Made by a program: the position numbers and the translations under genes. 64,000 nucleotides of DNA. It comes from Egicoccus sp. AB-alg2 (GTDB lineage Bacteria; Actinomycetota; Nitriliruptoria; Nitriliruptorales; Nitriliruptoraceae). The notes under the pieces were generated by a model, which was given only the letters and a program-made list of their open reading frames with translations, did not search any database and had not been told where the DNA came from. Location: the NCBI RefSeq assembly GCF_041821065.1, contig NZ_JBGUAX010000006.1, positions 310,001-374,000 on the forward strand, given 5' to 3'. Shown here piece by piece: positions 32,448 to 38,507 of the stretch. Position 1 is the first letter of the stretch, and each line of letters begins with the position of its first letter.

Positions 32448-32813
32448 TCAGCCGGCGTCCTCGTCCGACTGCCAGAGGGCGACGACGTTGCCCTCGGGGT
32501 CGCGCAGGTAGGCGGTCCAGCCCATGCCGGGAACGGGCAGCTTCTCCTGCACCTGCTCGGCGCCGTGCCCGACGGCATCGCCCACGGTGGCGTCCAGGTC
32601 CTCCACGCCGATCACGACGATCGGTGCGGAGGCGAGCTCGGAACGGCCCGTGAGCGCGCCGTCGATGCCCGGCTCGGTCTCTTCGCCGGTGGTCGCCAAC
32701 CAGTACGGCTGGTCGCCGTAGCCCTCCAGCTTCCAGCCGAACACCGACGAGTAGAACGCGCGGGCGCGGTCGGGATCGTCGACGGGCAGTTCGAAGTGCA
32801 CGATCCGGGGCAT
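32448..32813 (-). CDS. VOC-superfamily (glyoxalase/dioxygenase-like) protein
   Basis: Small 121-residue protein with a tandem beta-alpha-beta-beta-beta fold. MPRIVHFELPVDDPDRARAF with FYSSVFGWKLEG is the typical VOC N-terminal module, and GMGWTAYLRDPEGNVVALWQ the C-terminal one. A possible metal set is His6, with Glu or Gln residues in the later module, but no specific enzyme can be named. An AGGAGGAG site precedes the ATG. It stands alone between ffh and the ArsA operon. Confidence 0.85.
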   Translation of the reverse strand: MPRIVHFELPVDDPDRARAFYSSVFGWKLEGYGDQPYWLATTGEETEPGIDGALTGRSELASAPIVVIGVEDLDATVGDAVGHGAEQVQEKLPVPGMGWTAYLRDPEGNVVALWQSDEDAG

Positions 32814-32947: not shown

Positions 32948-33895
32948 TCAGTCCGCCAGCAGCGGGATGAGCCCGTCACGGACCTCGGCCACCCCGGTCG
33001 CGTCGCTGACGTCGCGCGGCAACTGCGGGACCTGGACGAGGTCGCGCCCCGCGAACCGGCGGGCGATCTCGTCGAGGTACTCCTGCTGCTGCGCGCGACG
33101 GGACGCCAGGAAGGCCCCGTCGGCGTCGGGCGGCAGGACGCGGTTGACCACCAGGGCCCCGACGGTGAGCCCGGCCTCGTCCAGCGCGGCGACGGCCCGC
33201 ACGGTCTCCTCGATCGGGAGCCGCTCGGGGATCAGCACCGGATGGACCACCGCCTCGTCACGCAGATGGCGGGCCAGACGCGCCAGGCGCTGGCGCTGGG
33301 CGTGGAGGCGCTCGAGGACGGGGTCGTCGGCGGCGGTCTCGTCGCCGGCGAGGTTGCGCAGCATCCGGTCGACGCCGCGGGCCTTCTCGCGCTGGCGGAC
33401 CAGGCCCTGGATCCAGCCGGTCAGCACCTCGGGCATGGCCAGCAGCCGCAGGGTGTGCCCGGTCGGCGCGGTGTCGACCACGATGCGTTCCCACCGGGAG
33501 CCTGCTCCCGCCAGCAGGTCGGCGAGACGGTCGAGCAGGGCCGACTCCAGCGTGCCGGCGCCACGACGGGCGAGATCGAGGTGCCGGTCGACCGTCGTGC
33601 GCACCTCCGGGCTGACGACGCGGTGAACGTCACGCCGGACGGCCTCGACGTAGGCGTCGGCGACGGCCTCCGGGTCGATCTCGACGGCTTCGAGGTGATC
33701 GGTCACCGCCACGGGCTCTCCGCCGAGCGGCAGCCCGAGCAGGTCGGCGGTCGAGTGCGCCGGATCGGTCGACACCAGCAGCGTGTGCCGGCCGCGGGCC
33801 GCGAACGCGCCCGCCAGGGCGGTGGAGACCGTGGTCTTGCCGACCCCGCCCTTGCCGCCGATGAGCCGGATCGGCCGCGCGGCGCTCAACAGCAC
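32948..33895 (-). CDS. ArsA-family ATPase
   Basis: Soluble P-loop ATPase of 315 residues in the ArsA/Get3 branch. The deviant Walker A GGKGGVGKTT (residues 13-22), switch I STDPAHSTADLL and the ArsA signature DTAPTGHTLRLLAMPEV are clear. It has a single ATPase unit, so it would act as a dimer. Cys residues of the arsenite site of ArsA are absent (no Cys in the sequence), and there is no arsB in the window, so arsenite export is unlikely. Its GTG lies inside the end of the upstream CC-protein gene (10-nt overlap), placing it last in the cstA-CC-CC*-ArsA unit. Its client is unknown. Confidence 0.88.
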   Translation of the reverse strand: MLLSAARPIRLIGGKGGVGKTTVSTALAGAFAARGRHTLLVSTDPAHSTADLLGLPLGGEPVAVTDHLEAVEIDPEAVADAYVEAVRRDVHRVVSPEVRTTVDRHLDLARRGAGTLESALLDRLADLLAGAGSRWERIVVDTAPTGHTLRLLAMPEVLTGWIQGLVRQREKARGVDRMLRNLAGDETAADDPVLERLHAQRQRLARLARHLRDEAVVHPVLIPERLPIEETVRAVAALDEAGLTVGALVVNRVLPPDADGAFLASRRAQQQEYLDEIARRFAGRDLVQVPQLPRDVSDATGVAEVRDGLIPLLAD

Positions 33896-34146
33896 ACGCC
33901 CTCGGCCGGGAAGCGGTCGAGGCCCTCACGCTGGTGCCAGCGGTGGAACGACTCGACGAGCTCCGCCGTCAGCGGCAGGGTGTGGTAGGCGGCCGGGTCG
34001 TCGATCCCGTAGGAGGACAGCAGCAGGAGCGCCACGAAGGTGTCCTCCTGTCGCTGGGCCTCACGTTGCAGCCCCGAACGCCACTTCGCGAGGAACAGCT
34101 GGTCGTGCCAGTGCACCAGCCGCCGCAGTGCCGCCGGGACGTTCAC
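33886..34146 (-). CDS. Small protein ending in Cys-Cys (cory-CC-star-like)
   Basis: An 86-residue basic, aromatic-rich protein ending GVCC immediately before the stop. It contains RRLVHWHDQLFLAKWRSGLQ, EDTFVALLLLSSYGIDDPA and VESFHRWHQREGLDRFP; several His and Trp residues line the helices. From memory, small actinobacterial proteins with a terminal CC beside ArsA-like ATPases are annotated 'cory-CC-star'; I could not check this. The GTG start overlaps the previous gene (GTGA) and its end overlaps the ArsA start. The terminal Cys pair suggests metal or thiol chemistry, as inference only. Confidence 0.75.
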   Translation of the reverse strand: MNVPAALRRLVHWHDQLFLAKWRSGLQREAQRQEDTFVALLLLSSYGIDDPAAYHTLPLTAELVESFHRWHQREGLDRFPAEGVCC

Positions 34147-34559
34147 GCGGCCGTCATCGCGGCGCGGACCAGGCCGAGCGCGGTGGTGGCGTCGGGCACC
34201 GGACCGCTGGACACGACCCGGCCGTCGACGACGATGGCACCGCGGCCGGTCCCGCGGTGCAGGGTGCGCATCACCCCGGCGACCCGGCGGTGCGCCCGCC
34301 AGGCGTCCCGGGCCAGCGCGGGGACGAGCCAGGTGATGTTGCGGGGATCGACGATCTGCACGTCCACGGCCGAGGGCAGCGCCTCGGTGAGCCGCCGGTA
34401 GACCGCGCCCATGGCCTCCATGTCGGCCCGGGCGGGGGCGAAGTCGGCCGCGCCACCGAGCTCGCCCCCGCCGTCCAGCCGTCCGCAGCAGCTGGCACCG
34501 GTGGTCTGCTGGTCCCACTCACGGACCAGCAGGACCCGGTGCCGGCTGCGGGTGCTCAT
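34143..34559 (-). CDS. Putative thioredoxin-fold protein with a CC motif
   Basis: 138 residues with a predicted order strand (HRVLLVREWD, residues 7-16), Cys pair in GASCCGRLDGG (near 22-32), helix (MEAMGAVYRRLTEAL), strand (AVDVQIVDPRN), helix, then strand-turn-strand (GAIVVDGRVVSSGPV) and a last helix. The pattern resembles small thioredoxin-like proteins, and the vicinal Cys pair recalls ArsD, the metallochaperone that feeds ArsA; no close match is asserted. The ATG overlaps the cstA stop (ATGA), and the next gene overlaps its stop (GTGA). Confidence 0.65.
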   Translation of the reverse strand: MSTRSRHRVLLVREWDQQTTGASCCGRLDGGGELGGAADFAPARADMEAMGAVYRRLTEALPSAVDVQIVDPRNITWLVPALARDAWRAHRRVAGVMRTLHRGTGRGAIVVDGRVVSSGPVPDATTALGLVRAAMTAA

Positions 34560-36307
34560 CGGGCGACGGTCTCGTCGACGCTGGCCATCTCGCCACGGGC
34601 GCGACGCATGCCGAGGAACGCCTCGACGACGAGCCAGAGCGCGAGGACGAGGATGGCCAGATCCAGCGGCGCGAGCACCCAGTCGCCCTCGCGCACGAAG
34701 TCGACGAGGTTCAGGATCAGCGCCCACACCGTCATGACCAGCAGGAAGGTGAGCGGTATCAGTTGCGCCATCGCGTTGCGGCCCCGACGGGTCACGTAGA
34801 CCGCGATGACGGACAGCGCGAGACCCGCGGTGAGCTGGTTGGTGGTTCCGAACAGCGTCCACAGACGACCGAACGCGTAGCCCGCGTCGCCGCCGCCCGG
34901 GGCCAGGGCGAGCGCGAGGGGTACGGCCACGGCCAGGGCCGTCACGGTCGTGAGGTTGCCGGTGGCGCGCTTGAAGCCGCCCGCCGCGCCGGCGCGGTCC
35001 TGCCCGTCGGCCGTCGTGCCGACCATCTCGCCGATCTCCTGGATGATGTAGCGCTGGAGGCGCACACCGGTGTCCATGGTCGTGGCCGCGAACGAGATCA
35101 CCACGACGGCGGCGAACACCGTCCCGATCTCGACCGGCACGCCGAGGTGGCTGGCGAAGCCGGCGATGCCCTGCACGAAGTTGCCCACGGCGCCGGCGGA
35201 GGCGGCGCCGAAGTCCGTGTACTGCTCGTTCCACGTCAGCCCGACGGCGGTGATGCCGGCCGTGGTCGCCAGGATGGCTCCGAGGGCCAGGGAGCCCTCA
35301 CCGAGCGCGCCGAGATAGCCGACGTGGCGGGCGTCGGTCTCCTTGTCCAACTGCTTCGAGGTGGTGCCGGAGGCGACCAGCGAGTGGAACCCGGAGATCG
35401 CACCACAGGCGACGGTCACGAACAGGAACGGGAAGAACGAGGGCGAGCCCTCGGGGACGGCGGTGTTGATCGCCGGGGCCGCGATCCGGTCGAGCCCGAC
35501 GAGCAGGCCGAGGAAGATCACGCCGAGCGCGATGAACAGCTGGTGGCTGTTGATGTAGTCACGCGGTTGCAGCAACACCCACACCGGGATGCGCGAGGCG
35601 ACGAACGCGTAGGCGAACAGCAGGATGATCCACATCGTGCGGGGCCCGATGCCGAACATCTCGGCGAAGCCGTCGAGCTCGATCGGGTTGGCGGCGCCGA
35701 TCGGGATCAGGACGTAGAGCAGGACCACGCCGACGATGGACGGCACGAGCGCGCTCGAGCGCGTCTTGTAGATGTACTGGCCGATGGCGATCGCGAGCGG
35801 GATCTCGACCACGATCGGGATCACGGCCCCCGGGTTCGCGACGAAGAGGTTGCCGATGACGACCGCGAACACGGCGTTCACGAGCGTCAGCAGGAAGAAG
35901 ATGATGCACAGGAACAGGGTCCGCGAACGTGGGTTGATCACGGTCCGCGTCAGGGTGCCGATGTTCTGGGCCTTGTTGCGCACGGAGACCACCAGCGAGC
36001 CGAAGTCGTGCACGCCGGCGGCGAACACGGTCCCGAGCACGACCCACGCCAGCGCCGGCAACCACCCCCAGAACACCGCGATCGCCGGGCCGACGATGGG
36101 TGCCGCGCCGGCCACGGAGGTGAAGTGGTGGCCGAACAGCACGTGCTTGTTGGTCGGCACGAAGTCGACCCCGTCGCTCAGGGCGTGCGCGGGGGTGACG
36201 TTGGCGTCGTCGAGGACGTAGACCTTCTCCGACAGATAGACCGAGTAGTACCGCCACCCGAGGAAGAAGATCCCCATGACGACGGCGAGCACCACGATTG
36301 CGGGCAC
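34556..36307 (-). CDS. cstA: CstA-family carbon-starvation transporter
   Basis: Polytopic membrane protein of 583 residues with around 15 hydrophobic segments. Family motifs: NKHVLFGHHFTSVAGAAPIV, GPAIAVFWGWLPALAWVVLG, GAVHDFG-type VHDFGSLVVSVRNKAQNIG, GAISGFHSLVASGTTSKQL, TTMDTGVRLQRYIIQEIGE and GTTNQLTAGLAL. CstA proteins import pyruvate or peptides in enterobacteria. The GTG at 36307 follows GGGAGG by 6 nt; a longer frame of 41 more codons is unsupported. It is the first gene of a four-gene overlapping unit, and the usual CstA partner YbdD is not present. Confidence 0.92.
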   Translation of the reverse strand: MPAIVVLAVVMGIFFLGWRYYSVYLSEKVYVLDDANVTPAHALSDGVDFVPTNKHVLFGHHFTSVAGAAPIVGPAIAVFWGWLPALAWVVLGTVFAAGVHDFGSLVVSVRNKAQNIGTLTRTVINPRSRTLFLCIIFFLLTLVNAVFAVVIGNLFVANPGAVIPIVVEIPLAIAIGQYIYKTRSSALVPSIVGVVLLYVLIPIGAANPIELDGFAEMFGIGPRTMWIILLFAYAFVASRIPVWVLLQPRDYINSHQLFIALGVIFLGLLVGLDRIAAPAINTAVPEGSPSFFPFLFVTVACGAISGFHSLVASGTTSKQLDKETDARHVGYLGALGEGSLALGAILATTAGITAVGLTWNEQYTDFGAASAGAVGNFVQGIAGFASHLGVPVEIGTVFAAVVVISFAATTMDTGVRLQRYIIQEIGEMVGTTADGQDRAGAAGGFKRATGNLTTVTALAVAVPLALALAPGGGDAGYAFGRLWTLFGTTNQLTAGLALSVIAVYVTRRGRNAMAQLIPLTFLLVMTVWALILNLVDFVREGDWVLAPLDLAILVLALWLVVEAFLGMRRARGEMASVDETVAR

Positions 36308-37243: not shown

Positions 37244-37323
37244 CGCGGCCGGTGACGGTTCGGCAACGGCCCCGGCCCGCTCCCCTGTCGAGGTCGGCGA
37301 GGAACCGGCCGCAAAGAACTCAG
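37244..37323. repeat. Composite repeat, copy B, after ftsY
   Basis: Matches the element after cdsA: conserved blocks at 37244-37262 and 37298-37323 flank a variable 35-bp centre. The inverted arms GCGGCCGGT and ACCGGCCGC are preserved. The ftsY stop codon lies inside, as at cdsA. Because it separates the convergent genes at 36.4-37.2 kb and ftsY, it may act as a two-way terminator. Confidence 0.75.
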
Positions 37324-38507
37324 AGCTGGTCGAAGAGGCCGTCCACGAACAGGTCGGGGTCGAAGGGTGCGAGGTCGTCGATGTCCTCGCCGAGGCCGAC
37401 GAGTTTGACGGGCAGGCCGAGCTCGCGCTGGACGGCGACGACGATGCCGCCCTTGGAGGAGCCGTCGAGCTTGGTGAGGGCGATGCCGGTGACCTCGACC
37501 GCGTCGAGGAAGGCCTTGGCCTGGGCGATGCCGTTCTGTCCGGTGGTGGCGTCGAGGACGAGGAGCGTCTCCTCGAGCGGGCCGGCCTGCTTCTCCAGCA
37601 CGCGCTTGACCTTGCCGAGCTCGTCCATGAGCTCGCGCTTGTTGTGCAGGCGTCCGGCGGTGTCGACGATGAGCAGGTCGGCGGCGCGTTCGGCGGCGGC
37701 GGCGTAGCCCTCGAACGCGACGGAGGCCGGGTCGGCGCCCTCGTCCTTGCGCACGAGGTGGGCGCCGGTGCGGTCGGCCCAGATGCCGAGCTGGTCGGCG
37801 GCGGCGGCGCGGAACGTGTCCGCGGCGGCGAGCACGACCTGCCGCTCGTCGCGCTGTTCGACCGCGGCGAGCTTGCCGATGGTGGTGGTCTTGCCGGTGC
37901 CGTTGACGCCGGTGACGAGCCAGACCGTCGGGCCGTCGTCCGTGGCCCGGCCGAGCGAGCGGTCACCGGCGCCGAGTGCACCGCGCAGCTGTTCCTTCAG
38001 CAGGTCCAGCACGGCGTCGGGGCTGCTGGCGCCCTCCTCGCGGCTACGACGCTTGAGGTCCTCGACGATCTCCAGGGTGGCGGTGACGCCGACGTCGGCG
38101 GTGATGAGGGCTTCCTCGAGCCCGTCCCAGGCCTCGTCGGTGAGCCCGCGGCCGAACAGGTCGGCGACCGAGGCGCCCAGCACGTTGCGGGTGCGGGTGA
38201 GGCGCAGCCGGAAGCGTTCCCGGGGGGTGAGCACCGGCGTGGGTGCTTCGACGAGCTCTGCCGGCGTGTCGGGGACCGTGGGCGTCGGCGCCTCGGGCCG
38301 CTCCAGGACCGCGGTGTCGGCGTCGGTGCTGCCGGTGTGCTCCTCGGGCCGCTCGAGGACGGCCGTGTCGGTGCCGCCCTCCTGCGTCCCGGGCGTGTCC
38401 GGTTCGTCGTCACGGCGCCGGCGGGCGAGACCGACGCCGCCGACGAGGCCGGCAGCGGCGACCACCAGCGCGATGATCAGCTCGGGGGACTCGGTGAGGA
38501 ATTCCAT
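37320..38507 (-). CDS. ftsY: Signal recognition particle receptor FtsY
   Basis: Membrane-associated GTPase that docks SRP-ribosome complexes. The 395-residue protein starts with a membrane anchor (LIIALVVAAAGLVGGVGLA, residues 10-28), then an acidic linker with two DTAVLERPE repeats, the N domain (RFRLRLTRTRNVLGASVADL), and the G domain with GVNGTGKTTTIGKLA, AADTFRAAAADQL, DTAGRLHNKRELMDELGKV and TKLDGSSKGGIVV. The true transmembrane anchor is typical of actinobacteria and unlike E. coli. It lies just after smc on the strand, and its stop falls in the composite repeat. Confidence 0.96.
   Translation of the reverse strand: MEFLTESPELIIALVVAAAGLVGGVGLARRRRDDEPDTPGTQEGGTDTAVLERPEEHTGSTDADTAVLERPEAPTPTVPDTPAELVEAPTPVLTPRERFRLRLTRTRNVLGASVADLFGRGLTDEAWDGLEEALITADVGVTATLEIVEDLKRRSREEGASSPDAVLDLLKEQLRGALGAGDRSLGRATDDGPTVWLVTGVNGTGKTTTIGKLAAVEQRDERQVVLAAADTFRAAAADQLGIWADRTGAHLVRKDEGADPASVAFEGYAAAAERAADLLIVDTAGRLHNKRELMDELGKVKRVLEKQAGPLEETLLVLDATTGQNGIAQAKAFLDAVEVTGIALTKLDGSSKGGIVVAVQRELGLPVKLVGLGEDIDDLAPFDPDLFVDGLFDQL

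Follow-up and report, generated by a model that had tools for sequence, protein, structure and literature searches.

A CstA-family transporter gene conserved with genes for a CC-ended small protein and an ArsA/Get3-type ATPase in at least three phyla

Introduction

Why would a gene for a CstA-family transporter be run together with genes for two small vicinal-cysteine proteins and an ArsA/Get3-type ATPase? The question is raised by a minus-strand run of four genes at 36307-32948 of the window, the whole 64,000-nucleotide stretch of Egicoccus sp. AB-alg2 DNA analyzed here. Pyruvate/H+ uptake has been demonstrated for E. coli CstA and BtsT (PMC5847655, PMC7730263), and a distant CstA of Desulfovibrio has a pyruvate-specific phenotype (PMC10102598). 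Judged from these relatives, the window CstA probably takes up pyruvate or some other small acid akin to it.

Gene layout and protein families

The four genes overlap successively by 4, 4 and 10 nt (Table 1), and GGGAGG lies directly 5' of the GTG start of the CstA gene. The overlaps agree with those given in a first-pass annotation of this DNA. The GASCCG motif, the terminal CC and the cysteine-free ATPase that it had reported were confirmed in the translations, and its statement that the unit contains neither YbdD nor an arsenic gene also held: no ars gene was found in the operon, and PF04328 (Sel_put) had no match in the CC-ending small protein or anywhere in the source genome. Flanking the operon, with a VOC-family gene (32448-32813) also inside the interval, are an ffh-like SRP54 gene (ORF end 30859) and ftsY (37320-38507).

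Table 1 Genes of the CstA unit in the window
Feature	Position	Strand	Basis
CstA-family secondary transporter, 'short' branch, 583 aa	34556..36307	-	PF02554 450 bits; GTG start
CCtrx, 138 aa, GASCCG vicinal Cys pair	34143..34559	-	Pfam/NCBIfam: no match
cory-CC-star protein, 86 aa, C-terminus AEGVCC*	33886..34146	-	NF041419 87.1 bits
Single-domain ArsA/Get3-type ATPase, 315 aa, 0 Cys	32948..33895	-	TIGR00345 222 bits; PF02374 205 bits

The transporter is encoded by the only CstA gene of the source genome and is covered by PF02554 in both halves, in the split manner that is typical of short-branch CstAs. The small protein that ends in GVCC scores above the curated cut-off (80 bits) of NF041419, the NCBIfam cory-CC-star family, and is a member of it. 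Among 66 distinct cory-CC-star copies compared, all carry the terminal CC. Conservation of this pair as a by-product of gene overlap was rejected, because Psychrobacter copies with a clear gap before the ATPase gene still end in CC. Structure prediction gave an all-helical model of cory-CC-star (pTM 0.46), for which a fold search returned no PDB match.

CCtrx represents a family recognised here as new, which is linked to CstA but optional in the unit. Its AlphaFold2 model (pLDDT 81) has the order beta-alpha-beta-alpha-beta-beta-alpha, which fits a thioredoxin fold, and places the cysteine pair in a low-confidence loop. Structural matches by Foldseek were weak (best E 0.17) and mostly to thioredoxin-fold proteins (SelW-like proteins, ArsD entries 3ktb, 3kgk and 3mwh, and thioredoxins), and a sequence search of the PDB returned chance-level matches only. 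CCtrx is present in 18 of 66 genomes of the class and adjoins CstA or the remainder of the unit in 17 of them; the odd copy away from the unit (in G308) is frameshifted.

The ATPase was assigned to the GET3/ArsA superfamily by PF02374 and by TIGR00345, the 'transport-energizing' subfamily, whose cut-off is 135 bits. Its P-loop GKGGVGKT, DPAH and DxAPxG motifs are intact, with residues invariant in 51 relatives, among which no cysteine is conserved. With the parts of the ArsA/ArsD arsenite pump, the window unit has in common the ATPase fold and a vicinal-cysteine small partner in one operon. However, the window ATPase is a single-domain protein without cysteine, scores 118 bits against the 650-bit cut-off of the arsenical-pump model (TIGR04291) and is not accompanied by ArsB or ACR3. 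It likewise shares its superfamily and single-domain length with Get3/TRC40 and with mycobacterial BagA/BagB (6bs3-6bs5), but it lacks the zinc-binding CXXC of the Get3 dimer interface, falls below the BagA model (76 versus 400 bits) and is not the neighbor of a tail-anchored protein.

Conservation across genomes

A search for conserved co-occurrence and order, named beforehand as the test of the proposed four-gene unit, found it kept beyond the genus, with neighbors that are not unrelated. Matches to cory-CC-star were found in 27 of 396 Actinomycetota genomes, and 26 of the 27 also have CstA, itself present in 106 of the 396 (hypergeometric p 2e-15 for co-occurrence, the genomes not being independent). 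All 21 strong-match loci of Actinomycetota have CstA, optional CCtrx, cory-CC-star and ATPase in this order, the contig of one (L049) starting after CstA. Among named genomes, at least 80 loci have the order CstA-cory-CC-star-ATPase (80/80 of those listed, one without CstA at a contig end). The listed loci come from Nitriliruptoraceae, Rubrobacter, Euzebyales, Corynebacterium, Microbacterium, Nocardiopsis/Streptomonospora, Nitrococcus, Psychrobacter and Gemmatimonadota; as Psychrobacter dominates, they are not 80 independent cases. The order is kept in four of five gammaproteobacterial cory-CC-star loci, the fifth being broken or interrupted.

CstA, cory-CC-star and the ATPase form a conserved unit in at least three phyla (Actinomycetota, Gammaproteobacteria and Gemmatimonadota). 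The first-pass annotation had proposed a unit of four genes, but the core is one of three, with CCtrx found in 11 of the 80 named loci listed. No paper on the unit was found among open-licence papers. It is a real and widespread variant within a known kind of transporter system, and apparently an unstudied one. The same annotation had suggested that the system was undescribed, which stands for the unit but not for its CC-ending protein, a member of an already named family; that name is silent on the linkage to CstA and the ATPase documented here.

That the ATPase stays so strictly with CstA from phylum to phylum speaks for a dedicated rather than a general role of this enzyme. Among solved single-domain structures, its nearest relatives are Get3-type proteins of archaea (3zq6 and 3ug6), as might be expected if it served general Get3-like targeting of tail-anchored membrane proteins and were merely co-transcribed with CstA. 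Against the strict linkage, and with no segment of membrane-anchor length found on inspection of the adjacent small protein, we regard such a general role as very improbable.

Two further cory-CC-star signals lie apart from these loci. A weak match (E 1e-4) in G240, a genome without CstA, was taken as chance. The control genome of Haloferax volcanii gave a sub-cut-off signal for NF041419, and therefore an archaeal version may exist.

Two CstA branches with different small partners

In a tree of 86 CstAs, those linked to Sel_put (YbdD/YjiX) proteins form one clade (support 100) and those linked to cory-CC-star or CCtrx form a separate clade (support 99 with one contaminant row and 94 without it); this is a quick tree with several long branches, and its deep joins are unsure. 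A second CstA of G317 (L104, G317:C149) has a Bacteroidota-like neighbor protein, probably lies on a contaminant contig and was not used in the argument. The Sel_put-linked CstAs have segments that are missing from the cory-CC-star branch. The two partners also tend to occur in different genomes: CstA-bearing Actinomycetota include 42 with Sel_put only, 25 with cory-CC-star only and one with both (Fisher p 3e-6, the genomes not being independent), and this last genome (G171) has two CstAs, one beside each partner. Among 229 gammaproteobacterial genomes, Sel_put was found in 18 and cory-CC-star in five, with no overlap. In their own CstA branch, cory-CC-star and the ATPase occupy the place that YbdD/YjiX has in the other.

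Overlooked in the first-pass annotation was that YbdD/YjiX is itself CC-ended beside CstA. Both E. coli proteins, YbdD adjoining CstA and YjiX adjoining BtsT, end in CC, as do nearly all gammaproteobacterial Sel_put proteins examined; in one actinobacterial family (f15) the ending is CP. The E. coli pairs CstA-YbdD and BtsT-YjiX (PF02554 plus PF04328) resemble the window unit in that a CstA-family transporter is followed by a CC-ended small protein, but they belong to the other CstA branch, their small proteins are not detectably homologous to that of the window and they have no ATPase of the window type. Homology between cory-CC-star and YbdD was considered and rejected, as profile comparison aligned the tail alone (hhalign probability 5.7%, 9 columns). 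As homology reaches no further than the tail, the two proteins are likened by their position, their size and their CC ending.

We know of no established mode of action for YbdD in pyruvate uptake by CstA. With ybdD deleted, pyruvate uptake stood at 20% of the wild-type level, compared to 13% with cstA deleted (PMC5847655). That each CstA branch has its own CC-ended small protein, the two apparently unrelated, points to a common need for which the dithiol is important.

A cysteine of the transporter itself, Cys301 of the window CstA (ACGAISGFHS; Cys335 of E. coli CstA), is invariant in 84 of 84 aligned CstAs. This invariance, the presence of two different Cys-pair proteins beside one transporter branch and the predicted thioredoxin-like fold of CCtrx would suit redox control, with the dithiol proteins sensing or repairing oxidation of CstA (for example, at Cys301) and the ATPase acting as a Get3-like redox-regulated holdase. 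Yet Cys301 is not specific to dithiol-partner systems, because it is equally invariant in CstAs with a dithiol partner, with a CC-less partner or without a dithiol partner. Moreover, the cysteine pair of CCtrx is CC instead of CXXC, and the CXXC known from Get3 is missing from the ATPase. Redox control is, in our judgment, improbable.

Loci that separate the parts

Two groups of loci depart from the standard composition. Five loci nested in the cory-CC-star clade (L099-L103) contain CstA and CCtrx without cory-CC-star and the ATPase, and no close copy of either missing gene was found in their genomes. They amount to a natural experiment on whether CCtrx can replace the small protein and the ATPase. 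In a distant lineage (L054-L057, from G179, G034, G213 and G037), the genes after CstA encode a pair of cory-CC-star relatives without the CC tail and a pair of ATPases. These ATPases are orthologous by position in three genomes (69-80% identity within a position and 35-40% between positions). The second small protein is likewise orthologous (74-86% identity across genomes) and the first is more diverged (43%); just one of this pair was located in L057.

It is the small protein that the ATPase accompanies, though not via the CC tail alone, because the two are jointly absent from the CCtrx-only loci and occur as two plus two without a CC tail in the distant lineage. G570 seems to break this pairing, its small protein lying on one contig and a fragment of an ATPase gene at the end of a second contig. 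Since the CC-less relatives keep an ATPase, the partnership can do without the tail. These patterns bear directly on ATP-energised transport, in which the ATPase would dock on CstA and render a proton-coupled carrier ATP-driven or ATP-gated, with the small protein as coupling subunit. ArsA-ArsB is an established precedent of an ATPase energising a carrier; in addition, TIGR00345 is the 'transport-energizing' subfamily and the ATPase accompanies CstA in all triad loci. ATP is nevertheless not a general need of CstA, because YbdD-linked CstAs mostly have no adjoining ATPase and the five CCtrx-only CstAs, from the same clade as the window protein, do without one. The number of ATPases in the distant lineage, furthermore, equals that of the small proteins (two and two) and not that of CstA (one). 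We consider energised transport unlikely, if less so than redox control.

The same loci weaken the role in metal handling through the ATPase that the first-pass annotation had entertained, as the ATPase is retained beside CC-less relatives and no cysteine is conserved in the 51 ATPases. Metal or metalloid handling would have CCtrx and the CC tail act as an ArsD-like dithiol relay supplying the ATPase or CstA. The vicinal cysteine pairs of both small proteins and the ArsD entries among the structural matches of CCtrx are consistent with such a relay, and in E. coli btsT-yjiX is followed by yjiA, a gene of the G3E GTPase family, which is linked to metal delivery. On the other hand, those structural matches have E-values of 0.17 or worse, the ATPase lies far under the arsenical-pump model and the operon is without an ars gene. 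YjiA follows in the E. coli btsT locus only, the window unit having an ArsA-type ATPase. A general pairing of Sel_put with a G3E GTPase was also rejected, since none of 18 gammaproteobacterial Sel_put loci has a yjiA-like gene within 1.5 kb on either side, and the E. coli arrangement is a hint only. A metal relay therefore has, in our estimate, only a slim chance of being correct.

Proposed role of the unit

The explanation we prefer, and to which we give an even chance, is of an accessory module for one CstA branch, in which cory-CC-star replaces YbdD as a non-homologous counterpart and the ATPase serves the small protein. The small protein is read as a stand-in because YbdD and YjiX are also CC-ended and beside CstA. 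The ATPase is taken to serve this protein, and not a metal, because of its lack of conserved cysteines, the joint presence and absence of the two genes and the two-plus-two arrangement without CC tails. Taken together, the comparisons suggest that one CstA branch needs a two-part helper, cory-CC-star and a dedicated ATPase.

Mechanistically, cory-CC-star would bind CstA as a small helical subunit on which transporter activity depends, much as E. coli CstA depends on YbdD, and the C-terminal dithiol of cory-CC-star may serve as a contact or as a redox or ligand point. The ArsA/Get3-type dimer would act as a dedicated ATP-driven chaperone that captures cory-CC-star and loads it onto, or releases it from, the membrane transporter. 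CCtrx, where present, might hold the dithiol in a working state, or might replace the small protein and the ATPase where these are absent. A bolder proposal, possible but in our view rather doubtful, is that the ArsA-type ATPase activates or energises CstA via the small dithiol-tailed subunit, which would be the first ATP-dependent control of this family together with a second, independent origin of a CC-tailed partner.

Most ArsA/Get3-type ATPases outside arsenic operons have, to our knowledge, no established role. Were the preferred explanation true, a bacterial member of this superfamily would gain a specific client. The Egicoccus genome also encodes a second ArsA-type ATPase gene pair (contig C17, 35828-37734), possibly BagA/BagB-like, and an additional lone ArsA-type gene (contig C2, 179602-180531).
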